Below are positions 7,819-63,315 of a stretch of 64,000 bases of DNA, in pieces. Within the stretch, counting starts at the first letter, position 1, and each line of letters opens with the position of its first letter. This DNA is from an uncultured Gammaproteobacteria bacterium (lineage in GTDB: Bacteria; Pseudomonadota; Gammaproteobacteria; Pseudomonadales; Pseudohongiellaceae), in NCBI GenBank assembly GCA_903853385.1, contig CAINTJ010000102.1, forward strand, positions 1 to 64,000, given 5' to 3'. The notes beneath the pieces are model-generated. The model searched no databases and was not told the DNA's origin. It saw only the letters and a program-made list of their open reading frames with translations. A program made the translations under genes and the position numbers.

Positions 7819-9987
7819 TCAAAAACTCAGCGATATCCCGGCGAAAAGAGTTCGGCGTGCTCCATATTGCGGTGCGCCTACCCCCACCCCGGTTCCGTCA
7901 CGCAGCAAGTACGATTGGTCGAACAAGTTGACCAACGCCAGCCGGCCTTGCAGTTTGCCGACTGCTGTTTCATTCCAGACATGGGTCAAGGACATATTCA
8001 CCGTGGCATGTTGCCCCAGTGTGGCTGCGTTGGGCTCTCCATTGTCGGAAGTGCGACGCATGCCACTGCCATACAGAAAGTCGGCACTGAGCTGGGAGTC
8101 GCCGAAATCATAGTGCACACCACCCGATAAGGAATAGGTTTGATCATGATCCAGGTAAACAAAGTGGTTGGCGATATAGCTTAATTCATCCGGGGCAAAC
8201 AACGATTGGCCCGAGATGATGTTTTTGCCCTGCGCTTTCTGCACGGTAAAATTCAGGAACCCGCCCCACAGCTTGTCGTTGTAGATGGCCGAAAATTCCA
8301 GACCTTGCGCACGGCCTTGCCGGTAGTTGAATGGCGACAGAATGAGCGCTTGTCCGAATTGGCCTTCGTCGATCAGGTTGGCAACTTTCTTGTAGTAAGC
8401 ATCGGCTGTCAGGGTCAGCAAAGCATTTAGCTTCCGGCTGATACCAACATCGAAATAATGTGTTTTCTCCGATTTGACATTATCCGATACCGGGATGGAC
8501 GCAGCATTGGTCGTATGGGCGTAGAGATTGATGCTGCCTTGGGAGGCCAGTTCCTGCGGTGGTGGTGTGAAGTAGCGCGAATAACCGGCGTGAAAAGCGG
8601 TGTCGTCGTTCAAGGCATAGGCCAGATTGAGACGGGGACTCCATTGATGTTCATCAACAAACGCTGCAACCTTGTCGAAGCGCAGGCCGTAGTTGAGCGT
8701 CAATGGCTCGGCAATATGCCATTCGTCTTGCATATACAGGCTGGTGAGGCTGCCGGTTTTGCCGGAATTGTCGACTATGGAAAGCGGATCTGTTCCCAGT
8801 TGCGCGCCCGTATTGTCAGCAGGGAACACAGCAACCGTGTTATTGCTGTGCGTGGTCTGGCGCGCATATTCGACGCCTGAGCGCACCGTGTGTGTGTTGT
8901 TCAGCTTGTAGCTGGCATCAAGCTGGACACCATTGGCGGTATTTCCGCGCAAGCTATTGGTTGCAACACCATTGAATATCAGGTCGCCAGCCAGGTCGGG
9001 TGTGTAATGCAGCTCGGAATACTGGTGAAAGCCGGAAACCTGAAAGTTCAAATTCCCCAGGCTCTTTTGATAAGACAAGACTATATAGCGGTTGGTCTCC
9101 GCTTGATGGTCGTTGAGCTGTGCTGAGGGCAAGCTGCTGAAGCCCTTGCCGGCGTCGCTAATGCCTGTCAGCGAAAATGCGACTGCTTGACCGGGATTGT
9201 TCGGTATCTGGAATGTTCCGCTATAGGTGCCAAACATGAGCCCGTAGCGGGTGTCATCGTCGGTGAAATACGACAAGCTGCCAAAGGTTTTGGCTTGGCG
9301 GGTATCGTCGTGAAGTGCACTTTTCCCGGGGAGTGGATTTTCAATGCCAAGTGAATTGGAGACATGGCTGGCGGACAGATAATAATTGAAATTACCCTGA
9401 CTGCCGAACAACTCGGCGCTGGGTTCAGCATAGTTGTTGCTGCCTGTAAGCATGCCAATTTGCCCACCCGGCTTGGTGCCACCTTCCTTGGTTTGAATGT
9501 CGACAATGCCGGCAGTGCGCAGGCCATATTGCGCGGGTAATGCGCCGGTAACGAATTCCACTTTATCAATCTGGCGGGTATCAATTGATTGCCCGAAGCC
9601 GGAAATGCTTTCCGGCAGCTGCACGCCATTGACCCGGTACTGGACGTTGCCATGATCATCACGGATGTGAATCGATCCGGAACCTTTGGAATCTTCAGAG
9701 ACGCCGGGTAGCCGCAACAACACTTCATTGAAGGGTGTGTCTTCGCCCTGGCCCAGCGTTTCGATCTTGTGTTCATCCAGCGTGTAAACTGTGGTTCCGA
9801 TTTTTGGCGACAGTTCGATACGAGCGCTCTTGAGATGGGCGCCGATTATTTCTATGACCTCAGGTGTTGCATCGGTGCTGGTGGCGGTATTGCCCGCGCT
9901 GCTGACCGTTTGGGAATGAACTGTGGAAGCCAGTGACAAACTTGCCAGCATTAGCGGCAATTTGCGCATGCATGTAATACGTTTCAT
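7819..9987 (-). CDS. TonB-dependent outer-membrane receptor, metal-type context
   Basis: A 722-residue TonB-dependent receptor. A signal peptide (MKRITCMRKLPLMLASLSLA, cleavage near VHSQ) is followed by a plug with VIEIIGAHL, FNEVLLRLPGVSEDSKGSG, IHIRDDHGNVQYRVNGVQLP and the FVTGALPAQYGLRTAGIVDI segment. The barrel ends RRTLFAGISLSF, with a terminal Phe. Upstream on the same strand, 176 bases away, is a small DUF2946-like protein rich in His and Cys. Such proteins are often seen beside copper or other metal receptors, so a metal or metallophore substrate is inferred. The 3' end faces the GAF-GGDEF gene. Confidence 0.88.
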   Translation of the reverse strand: MKRITCMRKLPLMLASLSLASTVHSQTVSSAGNTATSTDATPEVIEIIGAHLKSARIELSPKIGTTVYTLDEHKIETLGQGEDTPFNEVLLRLPGVSEDSKGSGSIHIRDDHGNVQYRVNGVQLPESISGFGQSIDTRQIDKVEFVTGALPAQYGLRTAGIVDIQTKEGGTKPGGQIGMLTGSNNYAEPSAELFGSQGNFNYYLSASHVSNSLGIENPLPGKSALHDDTRQAKTFGSLSYFTDDDTRYGLMFGTYSGTFQIPNNPGQAVAFSLTGISDAGKGFSSLPSAQLNDHQAETNRYIVLSYQKSLGNLNFQVSGFHQYSELHYTPDLAGDLIFNGVATNSLRGNTANGVQLDASYKLNNTHTVRSGVEYARQTTHSNNTVAVFPADNTGAQLGTDPLSIVDNSGKTGSLTSLYMQDEWHIAEPLTLNYGLRFDKVAAFVDEHQWSPRLNLAYALNDDTAFHAGYSRYFTPPPQELASQGSINLYAHTTNAASIPVSDNVKSEKTHYFDVGISRKLNALLTLTADAYYKKVANLIDEGQFGQALILSPFNYRQGRAQGLEFSAIYNDKLWGGFLNFTVQKAQGKNIISGQSLFAPDELSYIANHFVYLDHDQTYSLSGGVHYDFGDSQLSADFLYGSGMRRTSDNGEPNAATLGQHATVNMSLTHVWNETAVGKLQGRLALVNLFDQSYLLRDGTGVGVGAPQYGARRTLFAGISLSF

Positions 9988-10122
9988 GTTGAACCTGCAA
10001 TCGTACCTATGGTTTGCGAAAGGCTCAGGCGGCTAGAGCGGCTGAACCTTGGAAAGATCAGGTTGATGAAAGTCCGGTAACTGTGCATTGCACAAACCCT
10101 TCAGGAGCTTGCACAACAACAC

Positions 10123-60204: not shown

Positions 60205-61068
60205 ATGAATTCACTCATTCGCAGTGTGCTGTTGCTTGCGCTGGCCGCCGGCAGCTGCTTGCTGTCATCAGCGGCAATGTCAGAAAAGAATCTGGCCGGG
60301 GTGTGGGTAGGAACCTATTCGGAGGACTGGCCAGACCGTTTTCCCGGCCCGGAACTGGGAGACTACGCTGGTCTGCCGATCAACGACGCCGACCGCCTGC
60401 GCGCGTTGTCGTGGAGCGCTTCACTGATCGCATTGCCGGAATACCAGTGCCGCGTGCATCCATCTGATTATGCCAACAGCTTTGCCGACATCCGCCTCTG
60501 GGAAGAACGTGATCCGATCACCGAAAAACTGATCGCGCTGCATCTGCAGCATTTTGCGTGGCAAACCCGCCGAACCATCTGGATGGATGGTCGTGAACAT
60601 CCGCCTGAATATGCGCAGCACACCTCGATGGGCTTCTCCACCGGTCAATGGGATGGGCAGGTATTGACGATCCATACCACCCATCTGAAAGAGGGCTGGT
60701 TGCGGCGCAACGGCGCTGCCCGCAGTGACAAGGCGACTGTTACCGAACATTTCATCCGTCACGGCGATATCCTGACCTGGACCGTGGTGGTCAACGATCC
60801 GATTTATCTGGAAGAACCTTTCATTCGCAATCGTGATTATCGCTATAGCGTCGATAACCAGGTCGCCAACTATGCTTGTGACAGTGTCGTCGAAATGGTG
60901 CGAGCCCCTGGTTACATTCCGCACCATCTGCCTGGCACCAATGAAGATGTGAAAATTTTCGCGGAAACCCACGGCATTCCCTACAAGGCAGCCATGGGTG
61001 GTGCCGCCACGATGTATCCCGAATACATCAAGGTGATCCGTTCACTGCCTGTTCCCTCACCACGTTAA
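60205..61068 (+). CDS. secreted protein of unknown function, family A copy 1 (EDW family)
   Basis: A 287-residue protein with a signal peptide (SVLLLALAAGSCLLSSAAMS). The mature N-terminus has LAGVWVGTYSEDWPDRFPGP and GDYAGLPINDADRLRALSWS, then WEERDPITEKLIALHL, WQTRRTIWMDGREHPPEYAQ and VLTIHTTHLKEGWLRRNGAA. The segments WVGTYSEDW, GDYAG and the TTHLKEGWLRRNG motif recur in the third gene of the operon (WVAVVTEDW, GDYPG, TTQMAPGYVRKNG), so the two are paralogues. No characterised family is recognised. Its stop overlaps the MBL gene (TAATG). Confidence 0.8.
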   Translation: MNSLIRSVLLLALAAGSCLLSSAAMSEKNLAGVWVGTYSEDWPDRFPGPELGDYAGLPINDADRLRALSWSASLIALPEYQCRVHPSDYANSFADIRLWEERDPITEKLIALHLQHFAWQTRRTIWMDGREHPPEYAQHTSMGFSTGQWDGQVLTIHTTHLKEGWLRRNGAARSDKATVTEHFIRHGDILTWTVVVNDPIYLEEPFIRNRDYRYSVDNQVANYACDSVVEMVRAPGYIPHHLPGTNEDVKIFAETHGIPYKAAMGGAATMYPEYIKVIRSLPVPSPR

Positions 61069-62081
61069 TGGAGACGAAGACGATGCAATCCCTATCTGTT
61101 TCCAGCTTCTGCAAGCGTGGTGTGCTGCTGGCCCTGGGCATTTTGCTCGCCAGTGGCAGCCATGCCCAGCAGCAGGATTTCTCCAAAGTGAAAATTGAAG
61201 CGCTGAAAGTGCGCGACAACATTTACATGCTGGTGGGTTCCGGCGGCAATATCACCTTGCAAATTGGTGCCGACGGCGTCCTGATCGTTGATACCCAGTA
61301 TGCGGAATTGTCCGACCGGATCCTCGCCAAGATCCGCGAACTGTCCAAAGGCCCAATACGCTACATCATCGACACCCATCATCATGCTGACCACACCGGC
61401 GGCAACGCCAAGCTGCGTGCAGCGGGCATGACAGTTTCGGGTGGCAACGTTGGCGGCGATATTGCTGATGCCGGCGCCGGTGCCCAGATCATTGCGCACG
61501 AGAATGCGTTGCTGCACATGACAGCGCCTCCGGCCGCCGGCCAGCCGGCGATACCCTCGGCAGCATTGCCCACCCTGACCTATTTCACGCCCAAGAAGGA
61601 TCTGTGGTTCAACGGTGAAGGCATCCGCATCATGTACGAACCCAATGCCCACACTGACGGAGACAGCATTGTCTATTTTCGGCAGTCCGATGTGATTTCA
61701 TCCGGCGATGTGTACGTTACCAACCAGTACCCGTTCATCGATATTGCCAATGGCGGCAGCATCCAGGGCATCATCGCCGCTGCCAATAACATCATTGATC
61801 TGATCATCCCGGTCTATGGCCAGGATGGCGGTACGCTGGTGATTCCCGGTCATGGCCGGCTAAGCGACATCGGCGACGTGATCAACTATCGCGAAATGCT
61901 GACCATAATCCGGGATCGTATTGCGGACATGATCAGGAAAGGCATGACGCTGGAGCAGGTGAAGGCTGCCAAACCTACCCAGGATTATGACCCGCGTTGG
62001 GGCGCCAGCAGCGGTTTCTGGACCACCACGCAGTTCGTGGAAGCTGTCTACAAAAATCTCAGCACTGCCCAGGGTAAATGA
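61068..62081 (+). CDS. secreted metallo-beta-lactamase-fold hydrolase
   Basis: A 337-residue MBL-fold enzyme with a signal peptide (GVLLALGILLASGSHAQQ). Metal motif HHHADHTGG gives the HxHxDH ligands at His104, His106, Asp108 and His109. Other candidate ligands are in NAHTDGDS (His), SSGDVYV (Asp) and IPGHGR (His), a full two-zinc set. The periplasmic location fits lactone, lactamase or thioesterase-like activity, but the substrate is open. It lies between two paralogous unknown genes, coupled to both by TAATG and ATGA. Confidence 0.87.
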   Translation: METKTMQSLSVSSFCKRGVLLALGILLASGSHAQQQDFSKVKIEALKVRDNIYMLVGSGGNITLQIGADGVLIVDTQYAELSDRILAKIRELSKGPIRYIIDTHHHADHTGGNAKLRAAGMTVSGGNVGGDIADAGAGAQIIAHENALLHMTAPPAAGQPAIPSAALPTLTYFTPKKDLWFNGEGIRIMYEPNAHTDGDSIVYFRQSDVISSGDVYVTNQYPFIDIANGGSIQGIIAAANNIIDLIIPVYGQDGGTLVIPGHGRLSDIGDVINYREMLTIIRDRIADMIRKGMTLEQVKAAKPTQDYDPRWGASSGFWTTTQFVEAVYKNLSTAQGK

Positions 62082-62833
62082 CCATGATGAAATTGTTCCG
62101 ATTTGCAATTGCACTGGGCCTGTATGCGGGTGCTGCAGTGGCGCAGCCACCAGGACCGGGTCCCCAGGGGCCGGCCACCGCTAAAGCGGTCGCCCCCCAC
62201 GACATTACTGGCTACTGGGTTGCGGTGGTCACTGAAGACTGGCGTTATCGCATGATCACCGCCAAGGCGGGCGATTACCCTGGAATCAATCTGACCCCGG
62301 CCGCACAGCTGGTGGCCAATGCCTGGGATCCTGCCAAGGACATTGCCGCGGGCAACGTCTGCAAGGCCTATGGCGCTGGTGGTCTCTTGCGTTTGCCAAC
62401 TCGACTCCACATCACCTGGTCCAGCGATAACGTACTCAGTATCGAGACCGATGCTGGCAAGCAAAAGCGGCTCTTGAAGTTTGGCTCAGCGCAGGATGGC
62501 GCCGGCGCCGGCACTTTGCAGGGTGTTTCAAAGGCGCGTTGGGATTTGCAACGTGAGCGTGCGTTTGGTCCGGTTGTGAATGGGACGCTGGAAGTTGTTA
62601 CCACCCAGATGGCGCCAGGCTATGTGCGTAAAAACGGGGTGCCATATGGAGAGGGTGCCAAGTTGACCGAATATTACGAAACGGTGAAGGAAGACAATGG
62701 TGAGCAATTCCTGATCGTCATTGCCAACCTGGAAGATGCGGCCAATTTGGCCCAGCCGGTACTGACCAGCACCAATTTCAAACGCGAACCGGATGGCAAG
62801 AAGTGGGATCCGAGTGAGTGCATGGCAAAGTAA
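62078..62833 (+). CDS. secreted protein of unknown function, family A copy 2 (EDW family)
   Basis: A 251-residue protein with a signal peptide ending near AVAQ and a short Gly/Pro-rich linker. The mature part has ITGYWVAVVTEDWRYRMITA, GDYPGINLTPAAQLVANAWD, CKAYGAGGLLRLPTRLHITW, VVTTQMAPGYVRKNGVPYGE and KLTEYYETVKEDNGEQFLIV. It shares with the first gene the order [TY]EDW, GDY.G, an Asp-Trp-rich block and a TT-GY-RKNG block. It starts within the MBL stop (ATGA). Function unknown. Confidence 0.8.
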   Translation: MTMMKLFRFAIALGLYAGAAVAQPPGPGPQGPATAKAVAPHDITGYWVAVVTEDWRYRMITAKAGDYPGINLTPAAQLVANAWDPAKDIAAGNVCKAYGAGGLLRLPTRLHITWSSDNVLSIETDAGKQKRLLKFGSAQDGAGAGTLQGVSKARWDLQRERAFGPVVNGTLEVVTTQMAPGYVRKNGVPYGEGAKLTEYYETVKEDNGEQFLIVIANLEDAANLAQPVLTSTNFKREPDGKKWDPSECMAK

Positions 62834-62857
62834 GTGATACACACATCAAGCATGCAT

Positions 62858-62887
62858 AAAAAAGCCGGGATCAAACCCGGCTTTTTT
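62858..62887 (+). terminator. bidirectional intrinsic terminator
   Basis: Stem GCCGGG/CCCGGC (62864-62869 and 62876-62881), loop ATCAAA, flanked by six A (62858-62863) and six T (62882-62887). It serves the EDW/MBL operon and the opposing DUF6152 gene. Confidence 0.92.
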
Positions 62888-62907
62888 ATGTGTGGGCAGA
62901 CCTGGTA

Positions 62908-63315
62908 TCAGTCGAAACTTTCACCTTTCTGGCCCCAACCGAAATTGTCGGAAGTGCGACGAATACTCTGCATGCGCAAGCGATGGTCGCCCTCATCCCG
63001 GCTTGGCTGCCCGACTACAATCACCTCATCGCCGATTTTGAATGAGTCGCGGGTAAGTCCCTGGCGTTCCAGCGCAGTGGAACCACCCCATTCAATGCCC
63101 CATCGTTGTTCAACGCCTTTGGCATCGGGTGCAATTACCATCACGGAGGAATGCGGGTTGCGGAAATTCATCTGGACCAGCTTGCCTTTGATTTCTGCTT
63201 TTTTCTCAAGATCATAGCTGGCGGAGAATGAATGATGGGCCTGGGCAACCGACAGGGTTGTCAACAACCCCCAGACTGCCAAACCGGCCATTGTTATTTT
63301 TTTAACTGTTTGCAT
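62908..63315 (-). CDS. DUF6152 family exported protein
   Basis: A 135-residue exported protein. The start at 63315 gives a signal peptide (ITMAGLAVWGLLTTLSVAQA), followed directly by HHSFSASYDLEKKAEIKGKL and FRNPHSSVMVIAPD, the diagnostic DUF6152 start. The C-terminal half has WGGSTALERQGLTRDSFKIG and GDEVIVVGQPSRDEGDHRLR. Its location beside the EDW/MBL operon fits a shared exported pathway, but no function is known for DUF6152. Confidence 0.85.
   Translation of the reverse strand: MQTVKKITMAGLAVWGLLTTLSVAQAHHSFSASYDLEKKAEIKGKLVQMNFRNPHSSVMVIAPDAKGVEQRWGIEWGGSTALERQGLTRDSFKIGDEVIVVGQPSRDEGDHRLRMQSIRRTSDNFGWGQKGESFD

Follow-up and report, generated by a model that had tools for sequence, protein, structure and literature searches.

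An exported EDW-MBL-EDW gene trio and its DUF6152 partner in an uncultured gammaproteobacterium: conservation, predicted folds and candidate functions

The window analysed in this study (64,000 nucleotides of DNA from an uncultured gammaproteobacterium) contains three closely joined genes encoding exported proteins and a fourth gene, also encoding an exported protein, that converges on them (Table 1). The locus raises the question of whether these four proteins form a functional unit and, if so, what such a unit may do.

Layout and conservation of the trio

The genes of the trio are joined by a TAATG overlap at 61067 and an ATGA overlap at 62078, as read from the sequence; on these grounds the first-pass annotation had proposed that the three proteins are made together. 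Both overlaps are present. However, the reading frame of gene 2 contains a second ATG at 61083, whose ribosome-binding site (GGAG, nine bases upstream) is the better one, so the start of the MBL-fold protein is uncertain and the TAATG overlap is perhaps not the true one. The spacing of genes 1 and 2 ranges from -20 to +14 nt in most relatives, which makes co-translation plausible whichever start is used. The gap between gene 3 and the DUF6152 gene is occupied by the terminator-like hairpin listed in Table 1, which agrees with the earlier description of DUF6152 as facing the trio across a shared terminator; the hairpin was missing from the output of a simple consensus terminator scan. The flanking ORFs, judged by eye from the sequence, are presumably proB (upstream) and the gene of ribosomal protein S20 (downstream).

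Table 1. Features of the locus (positions are those of the window)
Feature	Position	Strand	Basis or remark
Gene 1, exported EDW-superfamily protein, 287 aa	60205..61068	+	ORF
Cys82 codon of gene 1 (counterpart in gene 3: Cys95)	60448..60450	+	
Cys225 codon of gene 1 (counterpart in gene 3: Cys248)	60877..60879	+	
Gene 2, exported MBL-fold protein, 337 aa	61068..62081	+	alternative start 61083; PF00753, E 6e-12
HHHADH zinc motif of gene 2 (H104, H106, D108, H109)	61377..61394	+	alignment
Remaining zinc ligands of gene 2 (H195, D214, H262)	61650 (H195), 61707 (D214), 61851 (H262)	+	alignment
Gene 3, second exported EDW-superfamily protein, 251 aa	62078..62833	+	ORF; homology to gene 1
Bidirectional terminator-like hairpin, gene 3/DUF6152 gap	62851..62894		19-bp stem, -29.6 kcal/mol, z -7.1
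Gene 4, DUF6152, 135 aa precursor, predicted OB-fold	62908..63315	-	PF19649, E 3e-22
His29 codon (NPH motif) of mature DUF6152	63151..63153	-	
His1-His2 codons of mature DUF6152	63232..63237	-	directly after AQA signal-peptidase site

A scan with gene 1 across 84,980 species genomes yielded 60 loci, in most of which gene 1 is followed by an MBL gene; the complete order gene 1-MBL-gene 3 was observed in about 40 loci, distributed over Gammaproteobacteria and Acidobacteriota. The neighbourhood, on whose conservation the first-pass annotation had staked its proposal, is retained in two phyla. DUF6152 is a true member of it: close Gammaproteobacteria share the convergent arrangement of the window, six loci (L085, L089, L092, L098, L102, L106) have DUF6152 between MBL and gene 3, and in L068-L070 it is enclosed by a pair of gene 3 copies. 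Fusion of gene 1 with the MBL gene into a single ORF is seen in L097, L099, L100 and L104. Across 34 modules the protein distances of gene 1 and MBL (r 0.93), gene 1 and gene 3 (0.75), and MBL and gene 3 (0.77) are correlated to a degree reached in none of 2000 permutations, which suggests that the module moves as a unit, shared phylogeny accounting for part of these co-distances.

In a sister genus of the same family each genome contains 14-22 matches of the gene 3 type (gene 1 homologues included), and the two genomes that were read have about ten trios each, complete or nearly so. The flanks of these trios are mutually unrelated and consist mostly of housekeeping genes; no recurrent catabolic gene was found among them. 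Pfam tallies of the flanking genes were diverse and indicated no substrate. Our literature search found no published description of an EDW-MBL-EDW/DUF6152 system, in line with the earlier statement that no described pathway has such a layout. A tandem EDW pair was also detected in a MAG record titled Bordetella parapertussis (L087), an organism label that we regard as doubtful.

The EDW barrels and the MBL-fold protein

Genes 1 and 3 had been described as divergent paralogues, and this relationship was confirmed by sequence comparison: BLASTP aligned them with an E value of 7e-12, and a profile-profile comparison (hhalign) of the gene 1 and gene 3 families, represented by 55 and 47 relatives, gave an E value of 7.3e-42 across 213 columns, in which the two invariant cysteines coincide. 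This rules out chance similarity, and the two are, at the level of sequence, full-length homologues that share the EDW, GDY.G and TT...G[WY].R[RK]NG blocks. Neither gene matched any model of Pfam or NCBIfam, and the EDW part of the other EDW proteins of the source genome had no Pfam match either; the EDW superfamily is without a model in both collections. No sequence relatives of EDW were found in PDB, and a plasmid search with gene 3 returned no match. The gene 3 subtype is present as a single copy in the source genome.

The AF2 model of gene 1 (pLDDT 89, pTM 0.82) shows a nine-stranded barrel (residues ~30-217), with a helical insert (61-90) after strand one and a helical C-terminal tail. 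The nearest solved folds are those of FABP, CRBP and NanoLuc (best Z 8.2, rmsd 3.3, 116 residues), a borderline similarity, since Z values of 7-8 are common without kinship. The match nevertheless agrees with the position of the invariant GxW motif (Gly 92-100%, Trp 89-100% across EDW subgroups) in strand one; the EDW fold is predicted to be a calycin-like (FABP/NanoLuc-type) barrel. EDW resembles the calycins (FABP/CRBP, NanoLuc-type, lipocalin) in this first-strand GxW, in its predicted succession of one strand, helices and eight strands, and in the best structural matches of the gene 1 model. It differs from them in having (i) no sequence similarity to any solved structure, the structural match reaching only Z ~8, (ii) two invariant cysteines, (iii) the long helical insert, and (iv) the C-terminal tail. 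The cysteines at the positions of Cys82 (98-100%) and Cys225 (100%) are present in all four EDW subgroups and may form a disulfide in gene 1. Eight residues (G32, W34, C82, R123, G143, W149, D198, C225) are shared by genes 1 and 3, by EDW proteins that stand alone and by those fused to DUF6152.

Gene 2 is a member of the MBL superfamily (PF00753, 46 bits against a cut-off of 22.7), as judged from its fold and from its HxHxDH, H, D and H ligands; all seven zinc-ligand positions are occupied, so that the earlier description of a complete zinc MBL in the middle of the trio was correct. The best NCBIfam match was TIGR04559 (quinoprotein relay system zinc metallohydrolase 2; E 7.6e-22), whose operon partners differ; with 78 bits, far under the curated cut-off of 280, gene 2 was rejected as an equivalog of this family. 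Assignment to the class B beta-lactamases was likewise rejected (score/cut-off in bits: B1 44/200, B2 41/240, B3 32/240).

The complete set of zinc ligands is kept in 39 of the 69 operon MBLs and near relatives and is not found in the remaining 30, one of which (L052) is cut at a contig end, an artefact rather than a degenerate protein, which leaves 29 of 69 with lost ligands. The MBL tree requires at least three to four ligand changes, which indicates that the loss was not a single event, and intact and ligand-poor MBLs were found together within one genome. Such frequent loss means that hydrolysis cannot be the constant function of the module. However, the MBL of the window lies inside a clade with intact ligands, most of its close relatives also retaining all of them, and on this sequence evidence it is likely to be hydrolytic. 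Three loci (L099, L100, L104) contain two adjacent trios in opposite orientation, one of them with fused gene 1 and MBL, ringed by further DUF6152 and EDW genes; zinc ligands are absent from the fused MBL of L104 and from the two MBLs that were read in each of L099 and L100.

DUF6152 and its expansion alongside EDW

Gene 4 belongs to DUF6152 (PF19649, 78.9 bits against a gathering cut-off of 27), as had been annotated. Metal-binding proteins often have a mature end that starts with two histidines, and the histidine brace is a T-shaped copper coordination. The mature N-terminus of DUF6152, deduced from signal-peptidase sites in the sequence, carries His-His directly after an AxA-type site in all 81 domains with that region. 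By sequence, the mature N-terminal histidine and a second conserved histidine that could serve as a ligand (His2), both expected of histidine-brace proteins, are thus present in 81 of 81; a third histidine occupies mature position 28-30 in 80 of them. Only one of the 726 other exported-like ORFs in these loci has His-His after a candidate site. The three histidines constitute a candidate N-terminal-histidine metal site.

The AF2 model of mature DUF6152 (pLDDT 92.8, pTM 0.84) has the five strands and the helix between strands 3 and 4 that define an OB-fold, and it matches the OB-folds of SSB/PriB with Z values of up to 9.3; the family is therefore predicted to adopt this fold. The best sequence relative in PDB reached only E 0.63. 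A mature N-terminal histidine chelates transition metals in LPMOs, CopC and the signal-strapping families (PMC12537917, PMC10952591). DUF6152 resembles the signal-strapped metalloproteins DUF4198, DUF6702, Ang-1 and Ang-2 (PMC12537917) in being exported and in having a conserved first mature histidine and further possible ligands; it is unlike them in its predicted OB-fold, its His-His start and its pairing or fusion with EDW barrels. DUF6152 was not found in the main text of the signal-strapping paper, and literature searches for DUF6152, PF19649 and a histidine brace with an OB fold returned no paper. PF19649 is an uncharacterised family, and neither its His-His N-terminus nor its partnership with EDW was found described in the literature.

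The source genome contains 37 DUF6152 matches and about 42 EDW genes, 38 of which (out of 42) are located within 3 kb of a DUF6152; 2.8 would be expected under uniform placement, genome statistics being based on the coordinates of search matches. Many EDW genes are fused in one frame with DUF6152, the latter being N-terminal. The first-pass annotation had mentioned neither this genome-wide expansion of the two families nor the His-His start of DUF6152. Between 18 and 75 copies of DUF6152 were detected in eight trio-bearing genomes of the family, and 1-2 in six trio-less genomes of other genera. Two genomes without gene 3 are exceptions to this pattern (G160 with 57 copies, and G177, 88% complete, with 19), and the association is weakened as evidence by the shared descent of the genomes.

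Several individual loci are worth mentioning. A 35-kb contig (G000:C60, loci L127 and L128) encodes seven DUF6152 alternating with about ten EDW domains, often fused, together with one or more TonB receptors. In L133:5212-6795 and 8582-10084, DUF6152 is adjoined by EDW proteins that reach about 500 aa (the usual length is 250-300 aa). The cultured Aurantiacibacter rhizosphaerae GH3-10 carries a DUF6152-EDW pair, both frames being open, with a short overlap and unrelated neighbours (L107:7207-8393), and would be a tractable host for its study.

About 25 loci of PQQ-dependent dehydrogenases (e.g. L134:5775-8111, L129:10289-12415) were identified in the 2.95 Mb source genome; nine of the 25 lie within 6 kb of a DUF6152 (2.9 expected, P 0.001), a modest enrichment. 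This genome also contains a second repeated module, MBL-DUF1592 (PSD)-DUF1552 (HXXSHH)-ankyrin-repeat protein, at L121:6679-12925, L122, L123, L124, L125, L126, L140 and L143, the copies in L140 and L143 being without MBL. There are 19 full copies of DUF1592, and six of nine MBL relatives are located within 3 kb of one (0.3 expected).

Possible functions of the module

The folds predicted for the parts of the locus are known ones, their combination was not found described, and one superfamily is without a model. The reading that we favour, if tentatively, starts from the observed gene order, homology, conservation, fused forms, expansion and ligand residues. It proposes a four-part exported module, in which the EDW barrels and the MBL constitute a ligand-binding complex, hydrolytic in the lineage of the window, accompanied by a metal-holding DUF6152. 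Genes 1 and 3, as two subtypes of EDW barrel, would act in the periplasm by binding a small ligand that is probably hydrophobic, and both would flank the MBL in a stoichiometric complex, which is suggested by the order of the genes, their fused forms and the correlation of distances. The zinc-competent MBL of the window lineage would most likely hydrolyse the bound ligand (an ester, lactone or similar), and the MBLs poor in zinc ligands that occupy this position in other lineages could only bind or scaffold. DUF6152 would be a small OB-fold partner of the EDW barrels, and a transition metal, be it copper, nickel or zinc, is probably bound at its His-His N-terminus. Precedents exist for a barrel that binds a ligand, for hydrolysis by an MBL and for a metal site at an N-terminal histidine.

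The repeated loss of zinc ligands by operon MBLs of several lineages (29 of 69), while the operon was kept, would also fit a trio acting as a ligand sensor or scavenger, with barrels and MBL jointly offering a surface for binding, and with an intact zinc site in the window that is ancestral or structural; the isolated position of the modules amid unrelated genes points the same way. We consider this somewhat unlikely, however, since purifying selection for catalysis best explains the retention of all ligands in the window clade and most of its close relatives. The first-pass annotation had suggested a periplasmic catabolic or detoxification module. In such a pathway the MBL would degrade a specific substrate delivered by EDW, and the products would feed quinoprotein dehydrogenases, which accords with the complete zinc site of gene 2, the modest enrichment of PQQ dehydrogenases near DUF6152, and some TonB receptors and esterases near EDW/DUF6152. 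This suggestion was not supported and appears unlikely: the sister-genus trios have no recurrent catabolic neighbour, the window is flanked by the presumed proB and S20 genes, unrelated flanks indicate no substrate, and the zinc ligands are often lost.

It is also doubtful whether the role of DUF6152 is to sequester metal or, as a chaperone, to load it into exported metalloenzymes, the MBL included. Its N-terminal His-His and third histidine would suit such a role, for which DUF4198, DUF6702 and the anglerases (PMC12537917) offer a precedent; however, 18-75 copies per genome is a high number for a chaperone, and most copies pair with EDW, not with metalloenzymes.

Beyond the favoured four-part module, a new class of metalloenzyme is possible. 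DUF6152-EDW might, though we regard this as quite improbable, represent an unrecognised class of exported metalloproteins, in which a His-His metal site on an OB-fold is combined, often within one chain, with a ligand-binding calycin barrel that presents substrates to the metal. Such a system would have expanded to dozens of copies per genome to serve different substrates, the EDW-MBL-EDW trio being a second chemistry on the same barrel.

In some uncultured lineages, two exported families without an assigned function run to dozens of copies and are nearly always side by side. For DUF6152, a family on which the literature searches returned nothing, the His-His start offers a first hypothesis, metal binding, that can be tested directly; the conserved trio offers a defined set of proteins for co-expression. 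If DUF6152 and EDW are indeed a metalloenzyme pair with exchangeable substrate barrels, a share of these genomes that is otherwise without explanation would be accounted for.
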